Origin: a virus
IMG/VR virus record: IMGVR_UViG_3300036766_000744
Span: 1 to 20,336 of that record
Length of the DNA: 20,336 nt
Direction: 5' to 3' (one strand)
The notes under the pieces are model-generated. The model was not told the origin of the DNA. It saw only the letters and a program-made list of their open reading frames with translations, and did no database searches. The position numbers were made by a program, and so were the translations under genes. How positions within the stretch are numbered: the stretch's first letter is position 1; every line of letters begins with the position of its first letter. Positions 399-20,336 of the stretch are shown here, piece after piece.

Positions 399-417
399 GG
401 CCCGAAAGGGCAGCTTC

Positions 418-2711: not shown

Positions 2712-3145
2712 GAGTCCTCGCATTCATCCTCGCCACGCTGCTGCTCACCCCGCTGCTCTGTCAGTCCGCGCACGCCTCGTGCGTCGAAGAGAGTCGGTCA
2801 CAGTCGGTCAGCGAAGGCCAGGCTCTGCAGCCTGCGCCCGCGGCCTGTCAGTCGACCGATGCCAGCGCGCGCTTGCCCCAGGCGTGGCCAGACGCACCCG
2901 AGCTCGGCGGCCTGAAGGCCAACCCCGCGAGCAACGGCGTCGCACACCTCGTCGAGCACCGACAGGTCGCCGAGCTATCCGCCGCTCTGCTCAGTAACCA
3001 GCCCGACCAAAGCGCGCGTCAACCTCGCCTGCTGCGCGTGGTGCGGGCATCCAACATCTTGCCGCGCGCGCCCCAAGCGCTGCGTGATGAGCCCATCGCT
3101 CCTGTGTTGGTGCGGTGGGCTCGCGCAAACCTCGCCCACGTTTGA
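2708..3145 (+). CDS. small secreted protein of unknown function within the head operon
   Basis: The 145-residue product begins with a classic signal peptide: MR, then a hydrophobic run through L17, then A-H-A at 21-23, a good signal peptidase I site. Cys25 follows, but the preceding residues (H-A-S) do not make a good lipobox. The mature part is rich in Ala, Gln, Pro and Leu with no domain that I recognise. Its ATG overlaps the protease stop (ATGA), so it is coupled to the protease gene, and codon choice is GC-rich like its neighbours. An exported protein is not part of the usual Mu head cluster. It could be a cargo gene acting in the host periplasm, an envelope factor such as an exclusion protein, or part of a lysis function. 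None of these is shown by the sequence. Confidence 0.65.
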   Translation: MRVLAFILATLLLTPLLCQSAHASCVEESRSQSVSEGQALQPAPAACQSTDASARLPQAWPDAPELGGLKANPASNGVAHLVEHRQVAELSAALLSNQPDQSARQPRLLRVVRASNILPRAPQALRDEPIAPVLVRWARANLAHV

Positions 3146-3230
3146 CCGACCCTGCTCAACCCTGATCAGGCCCACGCGCAAAACATTTCTTTCTCGGTGA
3201 CCCGCAACCTCTCAACGGAGTGATTCGACC

Positions 3231-4160: not shown

Positions 4161-4166
4161 GCGCGC

Positions 4167-4183
4167 GCGTGACCCGGTCACGC
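4167..4183. repeat. intercistronic palindrome after the decoration gene
   Basis: GCGTGACC-C-GGTCACGC is a perfect inverted repeat of 8-base arms around one base, beginning 7 bases after the decoration stop. As RNA it would fold to a six-pair stem with a CCCGG loop. No T-run follows, so a plain intrinsic terminator is unlikely. It may stabilise or help process mRNA between two highly expressed head genes. Confidence 0.5.
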
Positions 4184-4235
4184 ACCCATCTGATCAACAC
4201 GCCCCGAACCCGGACACCGAAACTCAAGAGGACCC

Positions 4236-5189
4236 ATGGCCGACGACGACACCAACACCGCATTCCCAGTCGACCCGCAGCTCACCGCCATCGCGGTGGC
4301 CTACCGCAACCCCGACGTCTCGCTCATCGCTGACGCGGTGCTGCCGCGGGTGTCGCGGCCCGGCACGCTGCTCGAGTACACGAGCTACGACGACATCTAC
4401 CAGGCGTACACGCTGCCCAACACCAAGGTCGGGCCCAAGGGCAAGGTCAACAGCGTCGAGCTCGGCGGCCGGCGCGTGCAGGCGTCCACCGAGGACAACG
4501 CCATCCAGGTGCCCCTGAGCCACTTCGATCTCAACGCCATCAGCAAGGGCGTCGACGCGAAGGCTGCGGCCACGGAGTACGCCACCTCCATCATCAACCT
4601 GCAGCACGAGGTGGCCGTGGCCGCGCTCGTGTTCGACGCAGCGAACTACCCCGCGGGCTTCAAAGAGACGCTCGCCGGCGACGACCAGCTCAACGACGCC
4701 CAGTACGCGGGCAACCCGCTGAGTCTCATCTCGGCGGGCCTGGACACGGCGCTGGTGCGCCCCAATCGCCTGGTGTTCGGGCATAAGGCCTGGTCGGTGT
4801 TCCGCAGCTTGCCCGCGGTGGTCAAGGCCGTCCTGGGCAACTCGGGCGACAGCGGCATGGCGACGCGCGAGCAGGTGGCGCGCCTCTTCGAGGTGCAGGA
4901 GGTGCTCGTGGGCGTGAGCCTGCTGAACATCAGCAAGCCCGGCGAGGTCGCCTCGCTCAACCGCGTGTGGGGCAACCACATCGCCGCGAGCTACATCGAC
5001 CGCGCGGCAGCGCAGGTCGGCGGCCTGACCTTCGGAGCGTGCTTCGAGTACGGCACGCGCTTCGCGGGCACCATCGAAGACAAGGACATCGGCGCCCGTG
5101 GCGGCGCGCGTGTTCGGGTGGCCGAGTCCACCAAGCCCGTGATCATCGCGCCGCACGCGGCGTACTTCTGGGAAGACGTCGTCGCCTGA
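4236..5189 (+). CDS. major capsid protein, HK97-fold type
   Basis: The 317-residue product matches the capsid proteins that follow a gp33-type decoration gene. It opens with the characteristic D-P-Q-L-T-A-I-A-V-A-Y-R-N-P-D and L-I-A-D-A-V-L-P-R-V, and contains the HK97-like mid-region with A-T-E-Y-A-T and paired acidic and hydrophobic helices (about 100-140). It ends in a beta-rich part with V-R-V-A-E-S-T-K-P-V-I-I-A-P-H-A-A-Y-F-W-E-D. Length and position (protease, decoration, capsid, head completion) agree with Mu gpT-type heads. GAGG lies close before the ATG. The coat protein assembles into the icosahedral shell on the scaffold supplied by the gpI-like protein. Palindromes lie in both flanking intergenic gaps. 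Confidence 0.88.
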   Translation: MADDDTNTAFPVDPQLTAIAVAYRNPDVSLIADAVLPRVSRPGTLLEYTSYDDIYQAYTLPNTKVGPKGKVNSVELGGRRVQASTEDNAIQVPLSHFDLNAISKGVDAKAAATEYATSIINLQHEVAVAALVFDAANYPAGFKETLAGDDQLNDAQYAGNPLSLISAGLDTALVRPNRLVFGHKAWSVFRSLPAVVKAVLGNSGDSGMATREQVARLFEVQEVLVGVSLLNISKPGEVASLNRVWGNHIAASYIDRAAAQVGGLTFGACFEYGTRFAGTIEDKDIGARGGARVRVAESTKPVIIAPHAAYFWEDVVA

Positions 5190-5195
5190 TCGTAG

Positions 5196-5213
5196 GGCCG
5201 CGAGCTCGCGGCC
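5196..5213. repeat. 18-bp perfect palindrome after the capsid gene
   Basis: GGCCGCGAGCTCGCGGCC begins 7 bases after the capsid stop and would form a very stable seven-pair stem with an AGCT loop. The following bases (TGCCCAGG) have no T-run. It could act as a 3' stabiliser of capsid mRNA or reduce read-through into the head completion genes. Confidence 0.5.
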
Positions 5214-5246
5214 TGCCCAGGTCCACTCCAACACGAGAGGTCACGC

Positions 5247-5441
5247 ATGAAATACATCGTCAAGAGCGCCATCCGCACCGGCGGCAAGCTCTACAAGGAG
5301 GGCGACGAGGTCGAGCTGCCCGAGAAGCTCGGCACGCCTCTGGTCCTGCGCAAGCGCCTGGTCATGGCCGCGCCCGCCGCATCCAAGCCGCCCGCCGCGC
5401 CCAAAGAGCGTGAACCCAAGAAGACCGACAAGCCCGCCTGA
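5247..5441 (+). CDS. small head-region protein (Mu gp35-position), unknown function
   Basis: The 64-residue product has a compact N-terminal part (KYIVKSAIRTGGKLYKEGDE) likely to be beta-stranded, and a disordered tail rich in Lys, Pro and Ala. GAGAGG precedes the ATG by 6 bases, a good ribosome site, and the stop overlaps the next start as TGATG. Small proteins with such a YKEGDEV-type motif are common between the capsid and DUF1320 genes of Mu-like phages, where Mu has gp35. A role at the head or neck is inferred from position only. Confidence 0.65.
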   Translation: MKYIVKSAIRTGGKLYKEGDEVELPEKLGTPLVLRKRLVMAAPAASKPPAAPKEREPKKTDKPA

Positions 5442-5848
5442 TGCTCACGCTGGCGACATTCAAGCAGCGCTTCGACGCTGCACTGCTCGCGCAGTTGACC
5501 GACCCCGCGGGGGCCGCGTGCGACGACGTGAAGGTGCAGCACGCGCTCGACGATGCCGCCGCACAAATCGCAGGCTACACCTACCGGCTGCCCGTGATGG
5601 ATCAGCCGCCTGGTGCAACGCTGGCGGCGCATCAGGCCTCGCTCGCGCTCTACGCCCTGGCCGGCAACCGGCCGGGCGTGGAGTTCGATTCGATCCGCGC
5701 GCGGCACAAGGCGTCCATCGCCTGGCTCGAGGGGCTGACGGCCAGTGGCTCGTCCATTGGCATCGGTGGCTCGGCCAGTGCGCAGACCGCGCTGATGGAC
5801 GTCGCGAGCCTCGCTCAGTTCGGAGGCGCCGATGACGGTGCGGATTGA
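5441..5848 (+). CDS. DUF1320 protein, Mu gp36-like head-tail connector component
   Basis: The 135-residue product fits the DUF1320/Mu gp36 family: an opening L-A-T-F-K-Q-R-F, a helix with V-Q-H-A-L-D-D-A-A-A-Q-I-A-G-Y-T-Y-R-L-P, then a second helical region with H-Q-A-S-L-A-L-Y-A-L, ending in a Gly/Ser-rich tail. These helical proteins are thought to act as head completion or adaptor proteins at the portal. The start overlaps the previous stop (TGATG) and the 3' end overlaps the next gene by 17 bases. Order (capsid, gp35, gp36, G) is that of Mu. Confidence 0.8.
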   Translation: MLTLATFKQRFDAALLAQLTDPAGAACDDVKVQHALDDAAAQIAGYTYRLPVMDQPPGATLAAHQASLALYALAGNRPGVEFDSIRARHKASIAWLEGLTASGSSIGIGGSASAQTALMDVASLAQFGGADDGAD

Positions 5849-6302
5849 GGTCGAGCTGCATGATGGCTTCAGCCACGAGCTGAGGGCGCTCATGGTGCGT
5901 CTGGGCAGCGTCCAGGCGCCGCTCGACGACATCGGCGGCTCGCTGGTGACCTCCACGCAGCAACGCTTCGAGGACGAAGAGGGTCCTGATGGCACGCCGT
6001 GGCAGCGCCTGTCGGATGTGACGCTCGAGCGACGCGGCCCGGGCGCCAAGAAGCTGCGAGAGACAGGCGACCTCTACGACAGCATCGGGCACATGGTCGC
6101 CCCGGGCGCTCGCAGGGGCGGCTCGCGAGGCGCCACCTTATATGTGGGCGCCAACCGAACCTACGCCCGTATCCAGCAGCTGGGCGGCCAGGCCGGTCGC
6201 GGCCTGAAGGTCACGATTCCTGCGCGGCCGTACCTGGGCGTGAGCTCCGACGACCAGCGCGAGATCAAGGCCATCCTCGCCGACCACTTGAGGGCCAGCT
6301 GA
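5832..6302 (+). CDS. virion morphogenesis protein, Mu gpG / P2 gpS-like tail completion protein
   Basis: The 156-residue product carries the family features of PF05069: an N-terminal amphipathic helix, the segment QQRFEDEEGPDGTPWQRLSD at about residues 43-62, an L-R-E-T-G-D-L-Y-D-S-I segment at about 76-87, then Y-A-R-I-Q-Q-L-G-G and P-A-R-P-Y-L-G-V near the C-terminus. These proteins complete or terminate the tail and help it join the head. It starts inside the preceding gene and its stop overlaps the next ATG, so it is translationally coupled on both sides. Confidence 0.88.
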   Translation: MTVRIEVELHDGFSHELRALMVRLGSVQAPLDDIGGSLVTSTQQRFEDEEGPDGTPWQRLSDVTLERRGPGAKKLRETGDLYDSIGHMVAPGARRGGSRGATLYVGANRTYARIQQLGGQAGRGLKVTIPARPYLGVSSDDQREIKAILADHLRAS

Positions 6303-6814
6303 TGGCCTCGACGCAAGAGCAGGTCGACGCAATGGTGGCACGCATCAACACGGCGGCCATCGGCATCAGCGCCGAAGCCATGCCCGAGCGTCCGGCTCGG
6401 CAGCGTTTCATTCATGCGGTGGGCGTGGTGTGGGTCGCCTTCAACGGCGTTGTGTTTGCACCTGCCGCGGCCCTGGACTATCCGGTGCAGGATGGCGTCG
6501 CCCGCTTCGAGGCTGTGCTCCTGGTGCGCGGTCTCAACGGCCCCAAGGGCGCCAACAGCTACGTCGATGCGCTGCAGGCTCTCTTGCACGGCTGGGCGCT
6601 GCCTGACGGCCGCCCGCTCTCGATGGTGGATGTGAAGTTCGTCGACCACGAGGACGGCGTGTGGCGCTACGACCTGATGTTTTCGAGCAAGGTCGTGGCC
6701 GTGCCCGTGACCGATGACAGCGAGCTCGAGGAGGCGCCGCTCATCAAGCGGCTGCGCCTGGAGAGTGCGTACAGCGAGAGCCAGCTCGACGTGCCTGAAG
6801 ACCCCGAACCCTGA
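6302..6814 (+). CDS. Mu gp37-like protein (DUF1834-type), head-tail region
   Basis: The 170-residue product begins MASTQEQVDAMVARI and shows a helix followed by a long beta-rich part with V-A-R-F-E-A-V-L-L-V-R-G and a terminal acidic tail. The similarity to the Mu gp37/DUF1834 type is judged by position and general pattern: these genes sit between the gpG homologue and the sheath and are believed to form part of the tail terminator or neck. The start follows directly from TGATG overlap with the preceding stop. Family assignment is moderate; the coding call is secure. Confidence 0.65.
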   Translation: MASTQEQVDAMVARINTAAIGISAEAMPERPARQRFIHAVGVVWVAFNGVVFAPAAALDYPVQDGVARFEAVLLVRGLNGPKGANSYVDALQALLHGWALPDGRPLSMVDVKFVDHEDGVWRYDLMFSSKVVAVPVTDDSELEEAPLIKRLRLESAYSESQLDVPEDPEP

Positions 6815-6821
6815 GTGAACC

Positions 6822-7133
6822 ATGACTGATCGCAACTACATCTATTCGGGCCCACTGTCGGGCGTCACGCTGGCCGGTGGGCGCGAGATCATGCTGCGCC
6901 CGGGCAAGTCCGTGGTGATGCCCGACGACTCGCCCTACACGCAGCGATTGCAGGCGCGAGGGTTCCTCGAGCTGCAGGTCGAGGTGGAGGTCATCGTCGG
7001 CGAGGAGCCGGCCACCAAGCTGCTCAAGCCCGCGCGCAAGTCTGCGCCGGCGAGCCCGGCGCCCGCCTCGAGCGCCGCATCACCCAGCGCGCCCACGGCT
7101 CCCGGCATGGCTACGAAAAAGGACGGTGAGTGA
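6822..7133 (+). CDS. small gp38-like protein preceding the sheath
   Basis: The 103-residue product has a short beta-rich N-terminal half (Y-S-G-P-L-S-G-V-T-L, I-M-L-R-P-G-K-S-V-V-M-P-D-D-S-P-Y) and a long Ala/Pro/Ser/Lys tail. Mu places gp38, a small DUF2635 protein of unknown role, exactly here before the sheath gene, and the L-x-P-G-x-x-V and D-S-P-Y features recall it. The assignment is tentative. The stop overlaps the sheath start as TGATG. Confidence 0.6.
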   Translation: MTDRNYIYSGPLSGVTLAGGREIMLRPGKSVVMPDDSPYTQRLQARGFLELQVEVEVIVGEEPATKLLKPARKSAPASPAPASSAASPSAPTAPGMATKKDGE

Positions 7134-8572
7134 TGACCGATTTTCTGCATGGCGTCGAAACCATCGACATCCTCACTGGCGCCCGGCCGGTGCGCGGCGT
7201 CAAGAGCGCCGTCATCGGCTTGATTGGCACAGCTCCCATCCATCATGTGGCCGCGGCTGACCAGAAGATCAACGACAGCGTGCTGGTGCTGGGCGACGTG
7301 TCGGCGGCGAAGTACTTCGGCCCCGAGCTCGCCGGCTACACGCTGCCCAAGGCGCTCGCGGGCATCATCGCCGAGGGCGGCGGCATCGTCATCGCCATCA
7401 ACGTGTTCGACCCGGACACTCACCAGGACGTGGTGGCCGCGGCCGACCTCGACATCGTCGACGACCAGATTCAGCTCGCCAACGGCGACATCATCAGCGT
7501 CACGGTGAAGGTCGACGGAGGCGGCGGCTCGGCCCTGATCGAGGGCACCGACTACACCATCGACCGCGTCGCGGGGCTCATCACCACGCTGGCAGACGGC
7601 GCACTCGACGGCGACGCGCAGGCCAACGTGGCCTACGCGTACGGCGACCCCACCGAGGTCGTGGCGGCCGACATCATCGGCGATGTCGTGGATGGCCTGC
7701 GCACCGGCATGCAGGGCTTTCTCGACTCGTTCTCGAAGTACGGGTTCTTCCCGAAGATCATCGCCGCCCCTGCGTACTCGACCCAGGCATCGGTCGTTGC
7801 TGCGATGGCTTCCGTCGCCGCGCAGAACAAGTGCCGCGCCATCTACCTCGCGGACGCGCCGGTGGCCACCACGGTCGAAGAGGCCATCACTGGTCGCGGC
7901 CCAGGCGGCGCCATCAACTTCAACATCGCCGACAGCCGGGGCGTGCTGTGCTTTCCGCACCTGTCGGTCTACGACAGCGAGACCGACGCGACCGAGCTGC
8001 GGCCCTACTCGCAGTACCTGGCGGGCATCATCGCCCGCACCGACCGCGAGAAGGGCTTCTGGTACTCGCCGAGCAACAAGACCATCCGCAGCGCGCTGGG
8101 GACCGAGATCCCGGTCACCTGCGCCCTCAACGACCCCGACTCCGAGGCCAATCAGCTCAACGCCGCGGGCATCGTGACGGTGTTCAATGCGTTCGGTTCG
8201 GGCCTGCGCACCTGGGGCAACCGTTCGAGCGCCTTCCCCGGCAGCTCGCTGCAGACCAACTTCATCCAGTCGCAGCGTGTGGCCGACCAGGTGCACGAGA
8301 GCCTCGAGCTGGCAATGCTCGACTTCATGGACGAGCCCATCACCGACCCGATCATCGAGTCGGTGCTGGACACCGGCAACGGCTACATGCGCCAGCTCAT
8401 CGGTCGCGGCGCCGTGCCCACGGGCAGCGCGGTGACCTTCTCGTCTGAGAAGAACCCGCCCGAGGAGCTCGCCGCAGGCCACGTCATCTTCGACGTCACC
8501 TTCGTCCCCAATCCGCCGATGGAGCGGGTGACCTTCGAGAGCCGCATCGACGTCTCGCTGCTCGCACGCTGA
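7133..8572 (+). CDS. contractile tail sheath protein (P2 FI-like)
   Basis: The 479-residue product is a clear contractile tail sheath. It opens with F-L-H-G-V-E-T-I-D, has the conserved G-L-I-G-T-A-P segment near residue 30 and a mid-region with Y-S-Q-Y-L-A-G-I-I-A-R-T-D-R-E-K-G-F-W-Y-S-P-S-N, and ends with N-P-P-E-E-L-A-A-G-H-V-I-F-D-V and P-N-P-P-M-E-R-V-T-F-E-S, the C-terminal strand region of P2 FI-type sheaths. Contraction of this sheath drives the tube through the host envelope. ATG 7133 overlaps the preceding stop and is preferred over the GTG one codon upstream. Confidence 0.93.
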   Translation: MTDFLHGVETIDILTGARPVRGVKSAVIGLIGTAPIHHVAAADQKINDSVLVLGDVSAAKYFGPELAGYTLPKALAGIIAEGGGIVIAINVFDPDTHQDVVAAADLDIVDDQIQLANGDIISVTVKVDGGGGSALIEGTDYTIDRVAGLITTLADGALDGDAQANVAYAYGDPTEVVAADIIGDVVDGLRTGMQGFLDSFSKYGFFPKIIAAPAYSTQASVVAAMASVAAQNKCRAIYLADAPVATTVEEAITGRGPGGAINFNIADSRGVLCFPHLSVYDSETDATELRPYSQYLAGIIARTDREKGFWYSPSNKTIRSALGTEIPVTCALNDPDSEANQLNAAGIVTVFNAFGSGLRTWGNRSSAFPGSSLQTNFIQSQRVADQVHESLELAMLDFMDEPITDPIIESVLDTGNGYMRQLIGRGAVPTGSAVTFSSEKNPPEELAAGHVIFDVTFVPNPPMERVTFESRIDVSLLAR

Positions 8573-8611
8573 AACCGACGCTGATCAACGCGAGCACCCA
8601 AGAGGAACCCC

Positions 8612-9136
8612 ATGGCCATCCAAGTCAGCAAGATTTTCAACGCCAACGTCTACCTCGACGGCACCCAGAACCTGGTGGGTCGCGCCAGTGAGGTGAAGCT
8701 GCCCGACGTCGAGCCGCAGACCTCCGAGCACAAGGCCCTCGGCATGATTGGCACGCTCGAGCTACCGAGCGGACTCAAGCAGATGACGCTCGGCATCAAG
8801 TGGGCCGGCTTCTATGGCGACCACCTGAAGAAGAGCGCCAACCCGTTTTCGGCGCACAAGTTCCAGATCCGCGCCTCGCACGAGACGTACGCGGCGGGCG
8901 GCCGCACCGAGCAGCTGCCGCTGGTTGTGCTGGTGACGGGCAGCTGGAAGAAGAACGCTCTGGGGACGCTCAAACCCCAAGAGATGGCCGACGGCTACGA
9001 CGATGAGATTGCGATGACCTACCTGAAGGTCTCGCTCAACAAGGAAGAGCTGCTCGAGGTCGACGTGTTCCAGAACGTCTGGAAAGTCGGCGGCGTCGAT
9101 GTGCTCGAGCAGTTCCGCGCCAACCTCGGCGCTTGA
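8612..9136 (+). CDS. tail tube protein (P2 FII family)
   Basis: The 174-residue product matches the P2 FII tail tube family (PF04985): the start AIQVSKIFNANVYLDG, the segment G-T-L-E-L-P-S-G-L-K-Q-M-T-L-G-I-K-W, and the late A-M-T-Y-L-K-V-S-L-N-K-E-E-L-L-E-V-D region. Its length equals P2 FII rather than the shorter Mu gpM. It directly follows the sheath, the normal order. AGAGGAA lies 6 bases before the ATG, one of the best ribosome sites in the window, as expected for a protein needed in many copies. Confidence 0.92.
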   Translation: MAIQVSKIFNANVYLDGTQNLVGRASEVKLPDVEPQTSEHKALGMIGTLELPSGLKQMTLGIKWAGFYGDHLKKSANPFSAHKFQIRASHETYAAGGRTEQLPLVVLVTGSWKKNALGTLKPQEMADGYDDEIAMTYLKVSLNKEELLEVDVFQNVWKVGGVDVLEQFRANLGA

Positions 9137-9167
9137 TTCGTAACCCTTCCACCGCCCGGAGCACGAC

Positions 9168-9470
9168 ATGGCAGAATCAGATGCGGCCGCGCAGTGGCCC
9201 AAGACGCTCACGCTGCCCAGTGGCAAGGCCGCTGTGGTACGGCGCGGCACCGGCGACACCATCATGCGCAGCGCGCGGTTGGTCGGGGCCGAGGACCGCG
9301 GCAACCCGATGGCGCTGGCGATGGCGCATCTGGCGGTCAAGCTGACCCTCGACGGCAGGCACCTGACCTATGAAGAGGTGCTCGAACTCGACGAGGACGA
9401 CGTCTACGCGCTGCTCGGTATGACCCAGGGAAAAGGCCCTACGTCACCTCCGAGCACCTCGCTGCCTTGA
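9168..9470 (+). CDS. tail assembly chaperone, short form (P2 gpE-like)
   Basis: The unshifted product has 100 residues, with a beta-rich start (KTLTLPSGKAAVVRRG) and a helical part ending in Y-E-E-V-L-E-L-D-E-D-D-V-Y-A-L-L-G. It lies between tail tube and tape measure, the fixed place of the P2 E and lambda G chaperones, which coat the tape measure during tail assembly and are absent from the finished virion. The frame ends at TGA 9468 shortly after a slippery heptamer, giving a short form and a frameshifted long form. GGAG lies 6 bases before the ATG. Confidence 0.85.
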   Translation: MAESDAAAQWPKTLTLPSGKAAVVRRGTGDTIMRSARLVGAEDRGNPMALAMAHLAVKLTLDGRHLTYEEVLELDEDDVYALLGMTQGKGPTSPPSTSLP

Positions 9471-9598
9471 AGGCCGAGGGCTATCTCACGCACGCCGAGA
9501 TCATTGCGATGGACGAAGAGGATCTCGCGGCGGAGGTGACCGAGTTCATCGAATACCACAGGGCGCGCAACGAGCACGCCCGCAAGCAGCCACGGTGA
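9168..9598 (+). CDS. tail assembly chaperone, -1 frameshift long form (P2 gpE+E'-like)
   Basis: Slipping back one base at GGGAAAA (9428-9434) continues the chaperone in the -1 frame from 9434 (reading R-P-Y-V-T-S-E-H-L-A-A-L) to a TGA at 9596-9598. The fusion has 143 residues: 89 from the zero frame and 54 from the -1 frame. The extension is acidic and helical (Y-L-T-H-A-E-I-I-A-M-D-E-E-D-L) and has no good start of its own, which argues that it is reached only by frameshifting. This matches the conserved programmed frameshift of phage tail assembly chaperones. It ends 6 bases before the tape measure start. Confidence 0.85.
9428..9434 (+). other. slippery heptamer for programmed -1 frameshift
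   Basis: The codons CAG GGA AAA GGC contain G GGA AAA in the correct phase for simultaneous slippage of the P-site (GGA to GGG) and A-site (AAA to AAA) tRNAs. It has the X-XXY-YYZ form and differs from the lambda GT site (GGGAAAG) only at the last base. A ten-base perfect inverted repeat encloses it: GAGGTGCTCG at 9375-9384 and CGAGCACCTC at 9451-9460. Confidence 0.88.
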
Positions 9599-9604
9599 CG
9601 CACC

Positions 9605-11698
9605 ATGCAATCAATCTTCGAGCTCGCGGTCATCATCTCGGCGGTGGACCGCGCCTCGAAGGTCGCTGACACCGTCGGCAAGGCCATCGGCGGCATCGGC
9701 GCCGCATCTGACAAGCTGAAGAGCACAGGCCAATCGCTGGCCGTGCAGGGCGCCCTGGTCGACGGGGCCGCGCAGAAGATCACCGGCTGGATGGACGCCA
9801 TCCTGGCGCCCGCTGCGAAGGTCGAAGACGCCCTTGCGAAGGTGCAGTCGGTCATCACGCCGCTGGACGGCAACATGGCTGCGTCAATGGAGCGCCAGCG
9901 CGTGGCGGCTCTCGACTGGTCCAAGCAGCACACTGCGTCGGCCGCGCAGTTCGCTGACACGACCTACATGATGATCAGCGCTGGCCTCGACGAGAAGGCC
10001 GCCATCGAAGCGACGCGCACGGCGATGAGCGTGGCCACCGCGACGATGGGTGACAACGTCGCCACGGCGGCTCTGGTTGCCACCGTGTATAACAACATGG
10101 GCGACCACACCAAAGACGTCGGCAAAGAGATGGCGCACCTCGGTGACATCATCACCAAGACGCAGCAGACCTTTCAGTTCGAGAACCTTGGAGTACTCAA
10201 CGAGGGGCTGAAGTTCGGCATCCCCACGGCGCTGCAATATGGCGTGCAGCTGGATAGCCTGTCGGCCATCATCGGCCAGCTCAACAACGCAGGCATCCAG
10301 GGCGGCATGGCGGGCACCGCGTTCGCCGCGACGATGAAGGGGATGCAGGGCGCGAGCGAGAAGCTTGGGTTCTCCATCTCGCGCACGTCCGACGGCGGGT
10401 TTGACTTCATTGGCACGCTCAAGGGGCTCGAGGCCAAGTTCGGCACGCTCAAGAGCATGAGCCCCGAGGTGCTCGAGGGCTTCAAGGATGCGTTCGGCGA
10501 CGAGGGCTTCCGCGGCCTGTCCTTGATGATCGGCAAGTCCGCCGAGCTCGAGGCGAACCTCGGCAAGGTGCGCGACAACAGCCAAGCTGCGGCGAAGGCC
10601 ACTGCCATCATCGAGGCGACAAAGACCAGCCAGCTGCAGATCATGGCCAACACGCTGGACGCAGCCAAGGTCACGCTCGCAACGCAGCTCAACCCGCTGC
10701 TCACCCAGCTCATCCCGAAGGTTGTCGAGATGGCCAAGGCGTTCGGCGACTTCGCGGCCAAGCACCCGGGGCTGACCAAGATCATGCTGTCGATGCTGGC
10801 CATCGTGGGCGGCGTGCTGTCTGTGATCGGGCCCATGTTGCTGTTCACCGGCAGCATCTCGCTCTTCGCGGGGCATGCGATGGGCTTTGCCGCCGGCGCC
10901 TGGAAGATGGTCACTGGCATGTGGGGATTTGTCTCGTCGGTGATCGCGGGCGAGTCGGCCGCGGCCGCGTTCGCAATGACGCTCCTGGCCAACCCCATCA
11001 CCTGGATTGTGCTCGCCATCGTCGCGGCTGCGGCGCTCATCTATGTCTACTGGGACCCGATCAAGGCGTTCTTCGTGCAGCTGTGGGATGGCATCTCGAT
11101 GAGCTTCACCAATTCGTGGGCGGCCATCTCGGCGGCGTGGAGCGCGTTCCACCCGCTCGAATGGATCAAGACGACGTTCGCGAGCGTGACGGCGTGGTTT
11201 GCGGGCTTCTCGCTCTTTGATGCAGGCGCCAACATCGTGAGCACCATCGCCGACGGCATCATGGCCGGGGCCAGCAAGGCCGTCGCCGCGATGAAGTCGG
11301 TGGTCACCAGCGTGCGCGCATACCTGCCCTTCAGTCCGGCCAAGGAGGGTCCGCTCAAGGACTTGCACCGCGTGCGCCTGGTCGAGACCATCGCGGACGC
11401 TGTGCGACCCGACTCACTGGTCGCTCGCATGCGCTCGGTCACCGCAGCGGTCGCCGCTGTGCCGCTGGTGATGGCGCCCATGGCGGCTGCGGCGCTGCCC
11501 AGCGCGGCCAGCGTCATCGGTGCAGGTCGCGGCGCGGCCGGCGGTCAGGTCGTGATGCACGTGACCATTCAGATCGAGGGCAACGCGGACGCCTCGACCG
11601 TCGAGCAGCTCGACCGCTGGGTGCGCGGCAACGGCGCGGTGCTGGTCGATGTGGTGGACCGCGAAGCGCGCCGGCGCAAGCGCACGGAGCTTGGCTGA
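9605..11698 (+). CDS. tail tape measure protein
   Basis: The 697-residue product is the longest in the window and follows the chaperone. The first 370 residues are helical and resemble the phage minor tail/tape measure domain (PF10145 type), with A-A-Q-F-A-D-T-T-Y-M-M-I-S-A-G-L-D and F-A-A-T-M-K-G-M-Q-G-A. Hydrophobic segments at about 390-425 and 463-487 could insert into or cross a membrane during DNA ejection. The C-terminus repeats the common V-R-x-Y-L-P-F-S-P-A-K-E-G-P-L-x-D-L-H motif and ends in a basic stretch. At the usual 0.15 nm per residue the tail would be about 100 nm (inference). The ATG has no strong ribosome site, so coupling to the upstream frameshift product is likely; the stop overlaps the next ATG. 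Confidence 0.93.
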   Translation: MQSIFELAVIISAVDRASKVADTVGKAIGGIGAASDKLKSTGQSLAVQGALVDGAAQKITGWMDAILAPAAKVEDALAKVQSVITPLDGNMAASMERQRVAALDWSKQHTASAAQFADTTYMMISAGLDEKAAIEATRTAMSVATATMGDNVATAALVATVYNNMGDHTKDVGKEMAHLGDIITKTQQTFQFENLGVLNEGLKFGIPTALQYGVQLDSLSAIIGQLNNAGIQGGMAGTAFAATMKGMQGASEKLGFSISRTSDGGFDFIGTLKGLEAKFGTLKSMSPEVLEGFKDAFGDEGFRGLSLMIGKSAELEANLGKVRDNSQAAAKATAIIEATKTSQLQIMANTLDAAKVTLATQLNPLLTQLIPKVVEMAKAFGDFAAKHPGLTKIMLSMLAIVGGVLSVIGPMLLFTGSISLFAGHAMGFAAGAWKMVTGMWGFVSSVIAGESAAAAFAMTLLANPITWIVLAIVAAAALIYVYWDPIKAFFVQLWDGISMSFTNSWAAISAAWSAFHPLEWIKTTFASVTAWFAGFSLFDAGANIVSTIADGIMAGASKAVAAMKSVVTSVRAYLPFSPAKEGPLKDLHRVRLVETIADAVRPDSLVARMRSVTAAVAAVPLVMAPMAAAALPSAASVIGAGRGAAGGQVVMHVTIQIEGNADASTVEQLDRWVRGNGAVLVDVVDREARRRKRTELG

Positions 11699-12198
11699 TG
11701 TTCTACCTTGGGTCCATCAAGCTCGATGTCCTGCGCGTGCGTAGTCTTAGCGGCGTTGGTTTTGGCTGGGAGTACTCCGCGCAGACCACCATCGAGTCGC
11801 TGCCCATCCAGCAGCTGGTTGGCCAGAAGCCAAGCGATCTCTCGCTCGACATCAAGCTGCACCCTGCGCTCGGCGACCATGCGCAGCTCGAGGCGGCGCT
11901 GCGTGCATCGGGCGACGCCGGTGAGGTGCTCTCGCTGCAGACCGAGTCAGGCGTGCTGTTGGGCTACTATGTGCTCGCCTCCATCGGCGAGAGCTGGGAC
12001 TGGACGCTGCCAGACGGCACGCTGCTCGAGGGCGTGCTGTCGCTCAAGCTCACCCAGCACAGGCCGCCAGGTGATGCGCAGTCGCCGCAGCTGGCAGTCG
12101 AGGGCACGGCGGCTGCCGAACGTGTGACGCCGACCCAGGTGGACAGCTCGGGCGACCCGGCCGAGGTCCCGCTGTCACAAGTGGTGAGGTCCGCCTGA
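11698..12198 (+). CDS. tail protein U (P2 gpU-like)
   Basis: The 166-residue product opens MFYLGSIKLDVLRV and continues with F-G-W-E-Y-S-A-Q and Q-L-V-G-Q-K-P-S-D-L-S-L-D-I-K-L-H, which correspond to the P2 gpU family (PF06995), a small tail protein needed for completion of the tail. The W-D-W-T-L-P-D-G-T segment is also family-like. The last 40 residues are a Ser/Pro/Gln-rich tail. Both ends overlap neighbours by one base. The order T, U, X, D is that of many P2-related tails. Confidence 0.85.
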   Translation: MFYLGSIKLDVLRVRSLSGVGFGWEYSAQTTIESLPIQQLVGQKPSDLSLDIKLHPALGDHAQLEAALRASGDAGEVLSLQTESGVLLGYYVLASIGESWDWTLPDGTLLEGVLSLKLTQHRPPGDAQSPQLAVEGTAAAERVTPTQVDSSGDPAEVPLSQVVRSA

Positions 12199-12410
12199 TG
12201 GAGTACGTCCGCTACATCACACGGCAGGGCGACCGCTGGGATCTCATCGCATGGCGGTGCTACGGCACCCCGTACGCCTTCGAGCAGATCATCGCCGCCA
12301 ACCCCACGGTGCCAATCAGCACCGAGCTGGACGCCAACCTCGTGCTCGCCATCCCCGTGGTGCAGCAGGCCGCGCTCGATGTGGCGCTCTTGCCGCCGTG
12401 GAAGCGGTGA
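12198..12410 (+). CDS. tail protein X, LysM-like (P2 gpX-like)
   Basis: The 70-residue product shows the PF05489 tail X pattern: Y-I-T-R-Q-G-D-R-W-D-L-I-A-W-R-C-Y-G, then F-E-Q-I-I-A-A-N-P, ending L-V-L-A-I-P-V. The fold is LysM-like and in contractile tails it links tube, hub and sheath baseplate. It starts on TGATG with gene U and is followed 4 bases later by the hub gene. Confidence 0.9.
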   Translation: MEYVRYITRQGDRWDLIAWRCYGTPYAFEQIIAANPTVPISTELDANLVLAIPVVQQAALDVALLPPWKR

Positions 12411-12414
12411 GCCG

Positions 12415-13692
12415 ATGAGTCGTGCGCCCAGGCCCGTGTGGCTGATCACCTACGAAGACAAGGACGTGAGTGACGACATCGCGCCCATGGTCAAGAGCGT
12501 CACGTACACCGACCATGTGCACGGCAAGAGCGACGAGATTGGCCTCACACTCACCGATGACCAGGCGCTGTGGCGCGGCTCCTGGTACCCGAGCAAGGGC
12601 GACCGCATCGACCTGAAGATCGGCTACGACAACGAGCCGCTCTTGCCCTGCGGCCGCTTCGAGGTCGACACCGTGGATCTCGACGGCGTGCCCGATGTCG
12701 TGACGGTGCGTGGGCTCGCAGCCGGCATCACAGCACCGCTGCGCACCAAGCTCAGCCGAGGGTTTGAGGAGGTGTCAGTCCGCGACATCGCGCTGCAGAT
12801 CGCCGCCGAGCATGGCCTGCAGCTGGTCGGCGAGCCACCGACGCGCACGCTGCGGCGCGTGAGCCAGGCCAGCGAGACGTCGCTCGGCTTCCTCAAGCGT
12901 CTGGCCGAGGAGTACGACTGCGCGTTCAGCGTGCGAGGTGAGCAGCTGGTGTTCTTTCGGCTCCTGGATCTCGAGCAGGCCGCGGCGGTCACGACGCTGC
13001 GCCGCACAGAACTCAGCGGCTACCGGTTCTCCGATGGCACGCAGGGCACGTATGTGGCGTGCGAGGTGAGCTATCAGGATCCCGAGAGTGGCGAGTTGCT
13101 CAAGTGCCGGGTCGAGGCCGACGACAAAAGGACGCGCACCTCGACCGCGGCCGCGTCCTCGATCCCGCCCGACGTGCTGGGTGTGGTGGCGGCAGGCAAG
13201 CGCCGGGTGTCGCGCGGCGAGCTCGTGCGGACGTGGCAGCGCTGGATTGCCGGCCTTGGTTTCTATGCGGGGAAGATCGATGGCGAGTTCGGAGAGCTGA
13301 CTCGGCGCGGCACCCGACAGTTTCAGGCTCAGCAACACATCACCGTGGATGGCTCGGTGGGTCCAGAGACCTACGGCGCTGCCATCACGATGGGGTTTGT
13401 GCCGAGCGACGGTAACGCGGCTCAGGCGCCTGCCGCCGGCGACGTGCTCTACCGGAATATCCGCGTGGAAAGCGGTGCTGAGGCCGAGGACAAAGCGCGT
13501 GCTCTTCTGCGCCAGGCCAACCGCCTGCAGGTCACCGGTAGTCTGCGCGTGCCTGGCAACCAACGCCTGGTCGCCGGCAGCAAGATCGAGCTGGTGGGCA
13601 TGTCACGCCTGGACGGCGCATTCCTGATCGACAAGAGCACGCACTCGATGTCACGTGGCTACACCACCGAAGTCGAGGTGCACCATGTATAG
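12415..13692 (+). CDS. baseplate hub protein D (P2 gpD / Mu gp44-like) with inserted peptidoglycan-binding domain
   Basis: The 425-residue product is a late control D-type baseplate hub (PF05954): it contains D-D-I-A-P-M-V-K-S-V-T-Y-T-D, G-D-R-I-D-L-K-I-G-Y, F-E-V-D-T-V-D-L-D-G near the start and L-V-A-G-S-K-I-E-L-V-G-M-S-R-L-D-G-A-F-L near the end. Between these, residues 270-328 (LVRTWQRW to MGF) match the PG_binding_1 pattern: G-F-Y-A-G-K-I-D-G-E-F-G, then Q-F-Q-A-Q, then T-V-D-G-S-V-G-P-E-T-Y. The usual family length is near 380, so the excess is about the size of this insert. The domain would bring peptidoglycan binding to the tail tip. ATG 12415 is chosen because upstream codons would overlap gene X. 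The gene overlaps V by 8 bases. Confidence 0.9.
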   Translation: MSRAPRPVWLITYEDKDVSDDIAPMVKSVTYTDHVHGKSDEIGLTLTDDQALWRGSWYPSKGDRIDLKIGYDNEPLLPCGRFEVDTVDLDGVPDVVTVRGLAAGITAPLRTKLSRGFEEVSVRDIALQIAAEHGLQLVGEPPTRTLRRVSQASETSLGFLKRLAEEYDCAFSVRGEQLVFFRLLDLEQAAAVTTLRRTELSGYRFSDGTQGTYVACEVSYQDPESGELLKCRVEADDKRTRTSTAAASSIPPDVLGVVAAGKRRVSRGELVRTWQRWIAGLGFYAGKIDGEFGELTRRGTRQFQAQQHITVDGSVGPETYGAAITMGFVPSDGNAAQAPAAGDVLYRNIRVESGAEAEDKARALLRQANRLQVTGSLRVPGNQRLVAGSKIELVGMSRLDGAFLIDKSTHSMSRGYTTEVEVHHV

Positions 13693-14257
13693 GCGTGGCA
13701 CCGTCTCAGTGGTCGACGCCGTGACCTGTCGGGCCCGGGTGACGTTCGCTGACCGCGGCAACATGGAGAGCCACTGGCTCGACGTGCTGCAGCTCAACGC
13801 CGGCGCCAACCAGGACTACAGGCTGCCCGACGTCGGCGAGCTGGTCGGCGTGATGATGGACGAGCACGACGAGGCAGGCTGCATCCTCGGCGCCCTCTAC
13901 TCCAAGCGCCTGGCGCCGCCGTCGGCCGACGGGGATGTGCGCATGGCGCGCTTCTCCGACGGCGCAGTGTTCAGCTACGACCGGGCGGCACACGTGCTCG
14001 CAATCGATCTGGGGTCCGGGACCGCCGAGATCGCGGCCGGTGCACTGCAACTGACCTCGAGCGTGACGGTGCAGGGTGGCGCGGAGGCAGTGGCATTGGC
14101 GCAGAAGACAGCGGACGCGCTGACGGCGCTCAAGGACGCCATCAGCGCCGCCCCCATTGTAGCGCTCGACGGTGGTGCAGCGTTCAAGGCTGGCATTGTG
14201 GCAGCGCTTGCAGCCTGGCCGCCTGACATCGCATCGGAGAGTCTCAGTGCGGACTGA
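13685..14257 (+). CDS. baseplate spike protein V (P2 gpV / Mu gp45-like)
   Basis: The 190-residue product starts MYRRGTVSVVDAVTCRARVT, an OB-fold beginning typical of gpV/gp45, followed by W-L-D-V-L and L-P-D-V-G-E-L-V-G-V-M-M-D and G-C-I-L-G-A-L-Y-S. Past residue 85 comes a beta-helical part (D-G-A-V-F-S-Y-D, L-A-I-D-L-G-S-G-T-A-E-I). The gpV trimer is the needle that pierces the outer membrane. A C-terminal helical stretch follows the spike part; no H-x-H metal-binding tip was seen. The ATG lies within the last codons of gene D. Confidence 0.88.
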   Translation: MYRRGTVSVVDAVTCRARVTFADRGNMESHWLDVLQLNAGANQDYRLPDVGELVGVMMDEHDEAGCILGALYSKRLAPPSADGDVRMARFSDGAVFSYDRAAHVLAIDLGSGTAEIAAGALQLTSSVTVQGGAEAVALAQKTADALTALKDAISAAPIVALDGGAAFKAGIVAALAAWPPDIASESLSAD

Positions 14258-14282
14258 TGACCAGAACACTTTGACCTTTCGG

Positions 14283-14300
14283 GCTCGCGCGCGCGCGAGC
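14283..14300. repeat. 18-bp perfect palindrome between V and W
   Basis: GCTCGCGCGCGCGCGAGC lies in the 54-bp gap between V and W, the largest gap in the baseplate cluster, and ends 11 bases before the W start. As RNA it forms a strong stem. No T-run follows. It may limit ribosome entry at W or act as an RNA stability element. Confidence 0.45.
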
Positions 14301-14311
14301 AGCGTGGGCAC

Positions 14312-14656
14312 ATGTCTGTCACTCCAGGCTCGCAGGTCCAGCTCGGCACGCGTGGTGCGTGGCTGGTTGGCGTTGAAGCGACCGAGCAAGAGATTCGCAC
14401 GCTGTGCGGCACGCATGTTGGCGCGGTGCCGCTGGACCCGCAGCTCGGCATCGATTGGCTCAGCATCATCGACCTGCCGAGCGCAGATGCAGTGCCCGCG
14501 CTCATGCGTGAGGTGCACCGGGTACTCGCGCGTTACCTGCCTCTTGTCACGGTGGTCTCGGTCGAGGTCGTGTCCGCGGCCGAGAGTTGCGCAGCGAAGG
14601 TCACGTGGAGACCAAGTAGCGAGTCCGGCGAGCGCACGGTCGAGGTCGGACCATGA
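14312..14656 (+). CDS. baseplate wedge protein W (P2 gpW / gp25-like)
   Basis: The 114-residue product has the small wedge protein pattern: an early T-E-Q-E-I-R-T-L-C-G-T, then V-P-L-D-P-Q-L-G-I-D-W and a helix around A-L-M-R-E-V-H-R-V-L-A-R-Y. Its place between V and J is that of P2 W, whose product belongs to the T4 gp25 family and starts sheath polymerisation. The initiation region is poor (no clear purine-rich site) and a palindrome precedes it. It overlaps J as ATGA. Similarity is moderate, position strong. Confidence 0.78.
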   Translation: MSVTPGSQVQLGTRGAWLVGVEATEQEIRTLCGTHVGAVPLDPQLGIDWLSIIDLPSADAVPALMREVHRVLARYLPLVTVVSVEVVSAAESCAAKVTWRPSSESGERTVEVGP

Positions 14657-15783
14657 GTAGTCTGCCCGAGCCCGACTTCATCATGCGAGACCCTGCGGTG
14701 GTCGAGCAGGAGGTGCTCGAGACATGGGAGTCGCTCACCGGCTTGGCGCTCAGCCCTCTGGCTCCTGAGCGCCTGCTACTGGCGACGATTGCCTACCGCG
14801 AGTCCTTGTGCCGCATTGGCATCCAGGAGGCCGCCAAGCTCAACCTCGCGCGCTACAGCCGCTTCCCAATGATCGACTTCATTGGCGAGATGGTCGGCGC
14901 CGAGCGGCTTGCCGCAGCCAAGGCCACCACCACCATTCGGTTTGAGCTCGCCGAGGTTTATGGCTCGCCGGTGTCAGTGCCCGCGGGCACGCGTCGCAAG
15001 AGCAGAGACGGCCGCGTGGTGTTTGAGACCGACGACGACGCCGTGATCGCGACCGGCGATCTCTACATCGATGTGCCGGCCACAGCGACGCTCGCGGGCG
15101 TCCAGGCCAACGGCTACATCGCCGGTCAGATATCGGTGGAGGTCGACGAGATTCCGCTGGTGACCGCGGCCGCGAACACCACCGCGACCGATGGAGGCAC
15201 CACGGCCGAGCTCGACCCGCGGTACATCGAGCGCATCCTGCTCGCGCCTGACGCCGTCGGCGCGGGCTCCAAGGAGTCCTATCGTTTTGGCGCGCTCAGC
15301 GCATCTGTGCTCGTCGCAGATGTCGCCGTGCTCAACCCGGAGGCAGGCGACGCGCTCATCGTGGTGCTGGCGACCACGGGGCTGCCGAGCCAGGAGCTGC
15401 TCGACACCGTCGAAGCGCAGCTCTCGGCCGAGACGTTCCGGCCGCTGTGCGACACCGTGGCCGTGGGAGCGCCCACCGAGGTCAACTGGTCGCTCGCGGT
15501 GCGCATCAAGCTCTTTCGCGCGGCTGACCTCGAGAGCGTGATGGCGGCGGCCGAGCTCGCCGCAGACAGCTACCGCGCTTCGCGCGAGGGAAAGCTCGGC
15601 CGAGATCTTGTGCCCAGCCAGATAGCGCGTGTAGTGGGCGCACCCGGCATCTACTCGGTCATCGTCGACGAGCCCGCGCAGACCAGCATCGCCGCCGACG
15701 AGTGGGCTCACTGCGACTCGGTGCTGGTCGAGTTCGACGGCTGGGTCGATGAAGAGTTCGACGACGAGGTCGCCGGTGCCTGA
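14653..15783 (+). CDS. baseplate wedge protein J (P2 gpJ / Mu gp47-like)
   Basis: The 376-residue product fits the Baseplate_J family (PF04865). It has an acidic N-terminus with L-A-P-E-R-L-L-L-A-T-I-A-Y-R-E-S-L, a beta domain containing V-S-V-P-A-G-T-R-R-K-S-R-D-G-R-V-V-F-E-T, and a region with P-R-Y-I-E-R-I-L-L-A-P and the related S-Y-R-F-G-A-L. The C-terminal half contains L-G-R-D-L-V-P-S-Q-I-A-R-V-V-G-A-P-G-I. J builds the wedge together with W and I. Both ends overlap neighbours (4 and 8 bases). Confidence 0.92.
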   Translation: MSSLPEPDFIMRDPAVVEQEVLETWESLTGLALSPLAPERLLLATIAYRESLCRIGIQEAAKLNLARYSRFPMIDFIGEMVGAERLAAAKATTTIRFELAEVYGSPVSVPAGTRRKSRDGRVVFETDDDAVIATGDLYIDVPATATLAGVQANGYIAGQISVEVDEIPLVTAAANTTATDGGTTAELDPRYIERILLAPDAVGAGSKESYRFGALSASVLVADVAVLNPEAGDALIVVLATTGLPSQELLDTVEAQLSAETFRPLCDTVAVGAPTEVNWSLAVRIKLFRAADLESVMAAAELAADSYRASREGKLGRDLVPSQIARVVGAPGIYSVIVDEPAQTSIAADEWAHCDSVLVEFDGWVDEEFDDEVAGA

Positions 15784-16450
15784 CGCCCTGCTGCCAAGCT
15801 CCGTGTCCGATGAGCGCTTCAAGCAGCTCGACGCGGTTGCGCGCATGCGCTTTGATGCGCTCGACCGCACGAAACTCTTGGTCTACATGATCGACAACGT
15901 GGATGCGTCGGCGCTGCCTGCGCTCGCATGGCAGTTCAGGGTGCTCGGCGACAGTTGGTCCATTGCGCCCACCGATGCAGAGAAGCGCTCTCTGCTGCGC
16001 CGCGCCATCGCCCGGCGTCGTAGCCGCGGAACGACCTGGGCCGTGAAGGATGCACTGGATGCGGTGGGCTACCCCGTCGTGTTCATCGAGGAAGGTGTGC
16101 GCATCCTGTACGATGCCAGCATCACGTACAGCGGCGCCTTCAGGTACGACCACCACTGGGCCAAGTGCTGGATAATCGTGGACTCGGACATCGCAGCCGC
16201 GGCCGACTATGAGGCGGTGGCTCGCGCGATCAGCGCAACCTTCAATGAGTGGAAGCGTGCCGTCGTGCAGTTGGCCGCGGTGTACTTTGTGTTGGGCGCG
16301 CCGTCGGCCGAATTCACGCACGATGTCGCTGCGGTGTATTGGCCGGACACCGAAGAGCTGCGCTTGTTCGAGCTGATCTTGAGCGGCGCGCTTGCCGATG
16401 GTGACGAACTGGTCGTGGATGGCGACGATTACGTGATCGCAGGAGAATGA
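15776..16450 (+). CDS. baseplate/tail protein I (P2 gpI-like)
   Basis: Starting at GTG 15776 the product has 224 residues: PDALLPSSVSDERFKQLDAV at the start matches the P2 gpI family (PF09684), as do L-P-A-L-A-W-Q-F-R-V-L-G-D-S-W and R-R-A-I-A-R-R-R-S-R-G-T-T-W-A-V-K-D-A-L. The GTG lies within the last codons of J and is preferred over an ATG nine codons upstream, since the family begins close to the L-L-P motif. Protein I joins J at the baseplate rim, where fibres attach; accordingly fibre genes follow. Confidence 0.9.
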   Translation: MPDALLPSSVSDERFKQLDAVARMRFDALDRTKLLVYMIDNVDASALPALAWQFRVLGDSWSIAPTDAEKRSLLRRAIARRRSRGTTWAVKDALDAVGYPVVFIEEGVRILYDASITYSGAFRYDHHWAKCWIIVDSDIAAAADYEAVARAISATFNEWKRAVVQLAAVYFVLGAPSAEFTHDVAAVYWPDTEELRLFELILSGALADGDELVVDGDDYVIAGE

Positions 16451-18378: not shown

Positions 18379-18831
18379 ATGCAAGACGTGATCATAGTCC
18401 CGGCCGATGAGGCAGACGCAACGCGCGAGGCGCTCGGTCGTGCGTATGCGGAGGCGCTTGCCAGGCCGTACCCAATACCACCTGACGTGGTTGTGCCGGG
18501 GCGTGACGGCCGCAGCCCCGAAGGCCTGACCCTGTACTATGCCGACGCCCTCGTGAGTGCCGACGGCGTCAGCGCGGCGTTCAAGATTGGGGCGACCATC
18601 CTCCCGCAGCTGGGAAAGATACGTACCCTCACCGATGGGCGCAGGGTGATGCCCACGACAGAGGTGTCGAAGGTTGATCTCGCGACGTGGGCAACCGATG
18701 GGCGCAGGGTGATGCCCACGACAGAGGTGTCGAAGGTTGATCTCGCGACGTGGGCAAAGGTCGACACAGCGGGCCTGGCTTTGGGGAACGATTTAGTCGA
18801 CGCGACGGTGGAGGATAAATGGCTAGTCTGA
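18379..18831 (+). CDS. small fibre-region protein of unknown function with internal 21-residue duplication
   Basis: The 150-residue product begins MQDVIIVPADEADATREALG, with an acidic and helical first part, then P-Y-P-I-P-P-D-V-V-V-P-G-R-D-G. It contains the segment T-D-G-R-R-V-M-P-T-T-E-V-S-K-V-D-L-A-T-W-A twice in direct succession (residues 85-126), from an exact 63-bp DNA duplication. I recognise no family. It lies between two adhesin genes, so an adaptor, linker or fibre assembly role is plausible but unproven. The start has no obvious ribosome site; its 3' end overlaps the next gene by 13 bases and contains that gene's GGAGG. Confidence 0.65.
   Translation: MQDVIIVPADEADATREALGRAYAEALARPYPIPPDVVVPGRDGRSPEGLTLYYADALVSADGVSAAFKIGATILPQLGKIRTLTDGRRVMPTTEVSKVDLATWATDGRRVMPTTEVSKVDLATWAKVDTAGLALGNDLVDATVEDKWLV
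18631..18756 (+). repeat. exact tandem duplication of 63 bp
   Basis: Two identical 63-base units, 18631-18693 and 18694-18756, lie head to tail. The identity extends one base further and is in frame, adding exactly 21 residues. Absence of any difference, even at third codon positions, points to a recent duplication (or an assembly error). Confidence 0.95.
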
Positions 18832-19886
18832 CAGAGGATGGTCTGTGGGTTGGTGGCATCTACGCACTTGAGGCGACCGATGTAGTGGGCGTGGGCGGTG
18901 ATGGTGCGTCGAATGTGCAGCCTGCGGAGTTAAGTAATCGCACGGCGTGCTTGCTCACTGTGTTGCTGGACCTGGTGGTTGATGGGTGGCGCGCGGCCAG
19001 TGCCGACGGGTCCTATGCCGATGACTTCCACGCGCTCGCCGTCGCTGACAATGGTGTGCTCATCGCGGCGGGTGAGAATGGTGAGATACAACGTTCGACC
19101 GATAATGGACGCACGTGGACGCACGTCTCACTCGGAGAGGACGCATATGTTGGTGTCTGGAGAGCTGCCGCATTTGGTGGCGGTGTCTTCGTGCTGGCCG
19201 GTGATGAGGCCGAGCTGCGCAGCTCGAGCGACTATGGGCTGACCTGGGACAGTCTGGATCCGCCGACGGCAGATATCCTCGCGCTGACATACGGCGGTGG
19301 CCAGTTCGTTGGCGTCGGTGTCGAAGGCATCATCATCACCTCACCCGACGCAGAGGAGTGGACCGAGCAGGAGAGTGGCGTCGGCGAGACGCTGCAGACA
19401 GTGTTCTGCGGCGGCGGCTTGTTTGTCGTGGGTGGACAGTTGGGCATCATCATCACCTCACCCGACGCAGAGGAGTGGACCGAGCGTGATGCGGCGGCTG
19501 CGTACGAGGGCACATTCGTCGCGGGGGTGTATGCCGACGGGTTGTTTGTGCTTGGCAGCTCTGCTCGACAGGTGCAGGTTAGTGCCGACGGCGTTGAGTG
19601 GTCCGTGGCGGCCGACGACATCATCGGCATCGACGTGTTGGCCGGTTTGAGCTATGAGCTCGGCCTGTTCATCGCCCTCGGACCAGGAGGATGGGTTGCA
19701 ACAGCGCTCGGTGGCACGGCCGGTGGCCCCACCAGCGCCCAATCGTGGACCGCCCGTCGCACCCCCTTCGCGGCCAACCTCTGGGCCATCCTGTCGGTCG
19801 ACGGCCGACCCGTCGTGGTGGGCTCCAGCGGGCTACTGGCAGTCGGCTCTAAGGTAGCCCTGGCAGCACCCCCGCCGGAGGTGTGA
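18819..19886 (+). CDS. tail fibre tip with beta-propeller (BNR/Asp-box-like) repeats
   Basis: The 355-residue product begins with a short adaptor common in phage fibres: W-V-G-G-I-Y-A-L-E-A-T-D-V-V, then N-V-Q-P-A-E-L-S-N-R-T-A-C-L. The rest is a series of blades of about 40 residues, each with an Asp-box-like turn: STDNGRTW (about 92), SSDYGLTW (about 136), SPDAEEW (175 and 214), SADGVEW (255), and G-G-x-F-V strands between. This is the pattern of sialidase-like/YCF48-like propellers. No catalytic sialidase residues could be assigned, so glycan binding is more likely than cleavage. A strong GGAGG lies 4 bases before the ATG. It is the last phage gene before the probable right end. Confidence 0.78.
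   Translation: MASLTEDGLWVGGIYALEATDVVGVGGDGASNVQPAELSNRTACLLTVLLDLVVDGWRAASADGSYADDFHALAVADNGVLIAAGENGEIQRSTDNGRTWTHVSLGEDAYVGVWRAAAFGGGVFVLAGDEAELRSSSDYGLTWDSLDPPTADILALTYGGGQFVGVGVEGIIITSPDAEEWTEQESGVGETLQTVFCGGGLFVVGGQLGIIITSPDAEEWTERDAAAAYEGTFVAGVYADGLFVLGSSARQVQVSADGVEWSVAADDIIGIDVLAGLSYELGLFIALGPGGWVATALGGTAGGPTSAQSWTARRTPFAANLWAILSVDGRPVVVGSSGLLAVGSKVALAAPPPEV
19326..19485 (+). repeat. 43-bp identical repeat pair at 117-bp spacing (propeller blades)
   Basis: The 43 bases at 19326-19368 recur without change at 19443-19485, offset by 117 bases or 39 residues, one propeller blade. They encode G-I-I-I-T-S-P-D-A-E-E-W-T-E. Intervening sequence differs. The identity at synonymous positions suggests recent blade duplication or gene conversion. 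Confidence 0.9.
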
Positions 19887-19924: not shown

Positions 19925-19933
19925 GTAAATCCC

Positions 19934-19975
19934 AATCCCAAACCGCGTGACACAAAATCCCAAACCGCGTGACAC
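19934..19975. repeat. two 20-bp direct repeats at 22-bp spacing, probable transposase sites at the prophage right end
   Basis: AATCCCAAACCGCGTGACAC occurs at 19934-19953 and again, identical, at 19956-19975. The 22-base period equals the size of the Mu transposase (MuA) sites R1 and R2, which lie side by side at the right end of Mu. A CA at 19980-19981 lies 5-6 bases outside the outer copy, so reading inward the end would begin TGTAGCGTGTCACGCGG, in keeping with the TG...CA termini of Mu-like elements. The location just past the last fibre gene also fits. Confidence 0.6.
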
Positions 19976-19979
19976 GCTA

Positions 19980-19981
19980 CA
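19980..19981. other. proposed right terminus of the prophage
   Basis: Mu-type DDE transposition joins a 3' CA to target DNA. The CA at 19980-19981 is the first one outside the paired 22-bp sites, at about the distance found in Mu. If correct, ATGAG at 19982-19986 is the five-base target duplication, which should recur next to the left end outside this window. The exact base is inference. Confidence 0.45.
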
Positions 19982-20336
19982 ATGAGCGAACCAGTAGGCC
20001 ACCCGCCGCCCCGCCCCCACCAGCGCAGCAGGCCGTCCAAGTGGCGACGACGGCACCCGCAGCGCAGCGAGAACGAGACAAGGTGTGGACAGCGGAGGAA
20101 GACACCGAGGCCGCGGCCACAGACGAATTCGATACGCAAGCCGGCCGCGCGTGGTCGAATTCACGGACCGTGAGACCTGCCCCTGCGCGGCGGGTGCTCG
20201 GCCGAGTACTGCTTGGGATTGCGGCGCTCGTGCTCGTCAGCGTCGGCTTCAGGGCGCTTACGGCAACGACCAACACGTCGACGCCTCGCCCAGCACATCC
20301 GGCCGCGTCGCCGGCCAAGAACGACACCCGGGTGGA
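19982..20336 (+). CDS. probable interrupted host gene: proline/alanine-rich linker and one membrane span, partial at both ends
   Basis: The frame with codons starting at 20083 minus multiples of three is open from 19951 to the window edge. It encodes R-T-S-R-P-P-A-A-P-P-P-P-A-Q-Q-A, then an acidic stretch (W-T-A-E-E-D-T-E-A-A-A-T-D-E-F-D), then basic R-R-V-L-G-R and a hydrophobic helix V-L-L-G-I-A-A-L-V-L-V-S-V-G-F at about 20201-20250, then an Ala/Pro/Thr-rich segment. There is no ATG; GTGs at 19969, 20041 and 20083 lack good ribosome sites. The part seen looks like the middle of a single-pass membrane protein, such as myxobacterial kinases or regulators with a disordered linker. I infer that the prophage split it. 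Alternatively it is a phage membrane protein starting at GTG 19969. Confidence 0.55.

Follow-up and report, generated by a model that had tools for sequence, protein, structure and literature searches.

Very probable right end of a Mu-type transposable phage, with paired 22-bp transposase sites, in an uncultured virus record

Among described transposable phages, Mu has a right end (NC_000929) that, read inward from the terminus, consists of the hexamer TGAAGC followed by GGCGCACGAAAAACGCGAAAGC and GTTTCACGATAAATGCGAAAAC. KS10, a transposable phage of Burkholderia, carries putative paired sites at each of its ends, which are 15 nt long and do not resemble the Mu sites, and it was described with no direct repeats flanking it (PMC2628397). 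The target-site duplication of transposable phages measures 5 or 6 bp (PMC8705779). Here we analyzed a window of 20,336 bases, which is a complete IMG/VR virus record with the left end of the phage lying beyond it, and conclude that positions 19932-19981 very probably form the right end of a Mu-type transposable phage. The window resembles KS10 in having putative paired sites at an end of a transposable phage, those of KS10 being shorter (15 nt). It resembles Mu in its inward terminal TG(A/T)AGC and in its two 22-bp sites, arranged head to tail at positions 7-28 and 29-50, so that the Mu-like arrangement of R1, R2 and a terminal CA proposed in the initial annotation is matched by an identical 6+22+22 register in the Mu right end.

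The genes of the window correspond to the late half of a Mu-type phage, with the fibre genes at the right end and a divergent pair of repressor and Ner-like regulator genes at the left edge (Table 1). Additionally, the middle part of the baseplate hub protein (12379-13692) matches several endolysin profiles, as if a cell-wall binding domain had been inserted. Both a MuA-type DDE transposase and MuB are absent from the 20,336 bp. The closest relative, IMG/VR 3300032157_000374 (G001, composed of loci L002 and L005; baseplate protein 52%), encodes MuA (DDE_2, HTH_Tnp_Mu_2, and Mu-transpos_C) and MuB as determined by Pfam, with the late genes to the right and MuA and MuB to the left of a divergent repressor. 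The absence of a transposase from the window can be explained by this layout, which has MuA and MuB on the opposite arm and would place those of the window phage to the left of base 1. By inspection, G001 (L005, L002) also carries terminase-, portal-, and Mu F-like genes past MuA and MuB, on the arm opposite its other late genes. Unlike that of the window, the recorded right edge of G001 lies at a stop codon amid further genes, and no 22-bp pair was found at that edge.

Between the last fibre gene and an open frame without a start, AATCCCAAACCGCGTGACAC is present in two exact 20-bp copies (19934-19953 and 19956-19975) at a spacing of 22, and GCTACA adjoins the outer copy, its CA being the fifth and sixth bases beyond. 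Read inward, the window gives TGTAGC followed by 22 and 22 bases. The initial annotation had described these elements, and the coordinates and spacing of the repeats, the distance to the CA and the setting were all verified, with the fibre frame ending at 19886 and the sole start upstream of the open frame (GTG, 19969) falling within the outer repeat. Apart from a perfect 63-bp tandem duplication (TDGRRVMPTTEVSKVDLATWA twice, 18631-18757), which lies within the small gene preceding the last fibre gene, this is the only exact repeat of at least 15 bp with a period of 5-59 in the window, and the longest exact repeat at a period of 15-30 in 200 first-order Markov simulations of the window was 13 bp. 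No third copy was found in the window when up to 3 mismatches were allowed, nor was there a strong extra site of the R3 kind in the ~70 bp inside R2. In the 22-bp register the predicted R1 and R2 are identical at 20 of 22 positions.

Table 1. Features of the window, with predicted elements of the phage right end.
Feature	Position	Strand	Evidence or remark
Ner-like regulator (HTH_35), reading left toward the missing early region	52..357	-	PF13693 E=5e-18; phrog_769
Repressor-like protein, divergent from the Ner-like gene	373..948	+	phrog_2328 E=2e-6
Mu-type head and contractile-tail module (protease, scaffold, major head protein, Phage_tail_S, sheath, tape measure, hub, baseplate)	1590..16450	+	
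Last phage gene, tail-fibre type	18819..19886	+	phrog_3100 and others across the N-terminal part
R2, inner transposase site, inward GTGTCACGCGGTTTGGGATTGG	19932..19953	-	Predicted; all five key positions present
R1, outer transposase site, inward GTGTCACGCGGTTTGGGATTTT	19954..19975	-	Predicted; matrix from other phages' sites
Terminal hexamer TGTAGC (GCTACA on +)	19976..19981	-	Identical hexamer ends eight relatives, three with target duplication
CA, predicted right terminus	19980-19981		
ATGAG, predicted right copy of the target-site duplication	19982..19986	+	Inferred from position; left copy outside the record
Foreign DNA, probably from a host, carrying an interrupted 118-aa open frame	19982..20336		

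A tape-measure alignment (window and G001) used as the query yielded 80 viral loci and 4 genome loci, among which both ends could be located for three prophages. In a Clostridiaceae MAG contig (L086), a 34,951-bp prophage is flanked by a duplicated ATAAG, and when the flanks are joined a single open frame results, which matches the M42 peptidase family in its downstream part. A contig of a Tepidanaerobacteraceae MAG (L087) holds a 37,012-bp prophage with TTTAG duplicated at its flanks, which when joined restore a class-III aminotransferase frame, and in a third contig (L046) a 34,393-bp prophage has CTTAA at both flanks. The 22-bp pair of L086 itself drew attention to its right end, which the duplication then fixed; for L087, the ends came solely from the duplication and the similarity of the two termini, and for L046 the right end came from a hexamer scan and the left end from the duplication. 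Since L086 and L087 both read TGTAGC followed by 22 and 22 bases inward, the hexamer is established without recourse to the site letters of the window. These two prophages, which interrupt unrelated host genes, share with the window the terminal hexamer, the 22-bp register and related tape-measure proteins (39% and 32%, respectively, in the best segment), and differ from it in their AT-rich sites, their hosts and in having both ends and the duplication resolved. Near the right end of L086 (L086:17054-19906), a lectin-like gene, a small helical protein and a reverse transcriptase with a YADD motif were read as a likely diversity-generating retroelement, and a second Mu-type transposase lies on another contig of the same Clostridiaceae MAG (G020:C120:8767-8943).

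Eight further loci (L024, L031, L050, L052, L060, L061, L076, and L078) came from scanning for the hexamer together with a pair of similar 22-mers. Altogether, eleven relatives carry TGT or TGA and two tandem 22-base sites at the right end in the register of the window, the hexamer being exactly TGTAGC in 8 of the 11. Two of the IMG/VR contigs, L031 and L078, end exactly at TG, and the contig of L078 also begins exactly at a TG end; this 35,302-bp contig (G028; L111:1, L078:21580) runs from the TG left end exactly to the CA right end and appears to be a complete phage genome, because it starts and stops exactly at phage ends. Other candidates were set aside. L014 has a 22-bp tandem pair (16 exact bases) beside an open frame crossing the end, and is regarded as similar only, its sites scoring negative in the 6-base register and fitting better one base off. 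G023 and G027 each have a candidate left end but mismatched flanks, and neither was counted as a resolved prophage. The baseplate J protein as a query gave one true relative only (L003 was a false match) and no matches in a first genome scan, the fibre and sheath proteins as queries gave no matches, and GenBank phages contained no nucleotide-level relative of the window phage.

Every one of the 22 sites from the eleven relatives has C5 and A18; A6 and T14 are each present in 20 of them, and G15 is present in 16. R1 and R2 of the window have all ten of these conserved positions (C5, A6, T14, G15, and A18 in both copies). The A-tract common among the relatives at site positions 19-21 is TTT in the window. 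When scored by a site matrix whose training set left out the window, L014 and Mu, R1 ranked 11th and R2 53rd among the 40,630 22-mers of the window, and in 20,000 letter shufflings of each site an equal score was reached in none for R1 and in 0.015% for R2. Under a combined criterion (at least 8 key positions, at least 5/6 of the hexamer, and identity of at least 13) none of 500 simulated windows gave a match, whereas the window itself scores 10, 6, and 20, a comparison that tests the window against the set of relatives and is no independent prediction, since the key positions were derived from the relatives afterwards.

Taken together, these results suggest that the repeats are almost certainly the transposase sites R1 and R2, with the terminal CA at 19980-19981 and foreign DNA from 19982, because the ends of the relatives share the register, the conserved positions are present and the simulations hold no comparable match. 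The initial annotation's proposal of a Mu-like right end is supported by the homologous ends of the relatives, the three prophages with a 5-bp duplication, the Mu register and a flank sequence not found in phage collections. By the scheme of Mu, a MuA-type transposase would bind the two head-to-tail 22-bp sites, which start 6 bases inside the terminus, and would pair R1 and R2 with sites at the left end. A nick would then be made after the CA at 19981 and the 3' ends joined to staggered target DNA, which would leave a short duplication of the target, 5 bp long in the relatives with both ends resolved, and bases 19982-20336 would be the DNA that received this phage copy. For the window phage itself, we infer this binding and cutting, and a transposase of its own that matches the sites, from sequence comparison.

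The initial annotation had further suggested that the site sequence may define a distinct transposase specificity. The letters do differ from those of Mu: the window matches Mu R2 at 11 of 22 site letters (C5, A6, C7, T14, G15, and A18 among them), has ATTT where Mu has AAAA at positions 18-21, and has an R1 and R2 nearly identical to one another, unlike those of Mu. However, the conserved positions of the group are all present, and since site sequences differ from phage to phage in the group, divergence alone is no sign of an unusual transposase. The site letters of the window are new, in that IMG/VR contains no exact copy of the 20-mer; a search there with a relaxed terminus pattern also gave no matches. 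It is a tentative possibility, less likely than not, that the transposase recognizes a GC-rich site ending in an ATTT tail and is inactive on Mu ends and on those of the AT-rich relatives, which would provide an orthogonal end-transposase pair from a high-GC host.

The DNA from 19982 onward is probably foreign, with a host as its probable source. The 118-aa frame within it has a hydrophobic stretch that by inspection looks membrane-spanning, stays open up to the end of the record and, on the host side, lacks a start. Because the opposite strand is likewise open (19977-20336), the direction in which the interrupted frame reads is uncertain. Searches with the 118-aa protein against IMG/VR, GenBank phages and plasmids found no relative, which agrees with a host origin.

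Tandem repeats of ~22 bp are also found in operators, and this repeat sits directly upstream of an open frame, as would an operator pair or promoter element internal to the phage genome. Against such a role, the register and terminal hexamer recur at prophage ends with unrelated downstream genes, and the frame beyond is without a relative in viral or phage collections, which makes a regulatory element very improbable. We consider it extremely improbable that the repeat arose by chance or by a recent local duplication and is without function. R1 and R2 are more alike in the window than in the relatives, as would be expected of such an origin, and the nearby 63-bp duplication shows that local duplications happen; nevertheless, a matrix built from other phages' sites fits each copy, with the hexamer and CA standing in exact register.

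The origin of the flank is a separate matter, since 19981 could be the terminus while the DNA beyond is a host fragment carried in the virion, or a chimeric join, and not one stable prophage site. The DNA packaged in Mu-like virions has varied host sequence at its ends, and the flanks of G023 and G027 mismatch each other, as virion mixtures predict. We regard such an origin as unlikely, though to be taken seriously; it would leave the terminus and sites unaffected and change only where the flank came from.

With 19932-19981 read as the phage right end, the understanding of transposable phages is unchanged, the window being a further example of a known layout. What this reading provides is a fixed right boundary for an uncultured phage and an end signature for its group, TGTAGC followed by 22 and 22 bases with C5, A6, T14, G15, and A18, which can separate phage from host in metagenome contigs.
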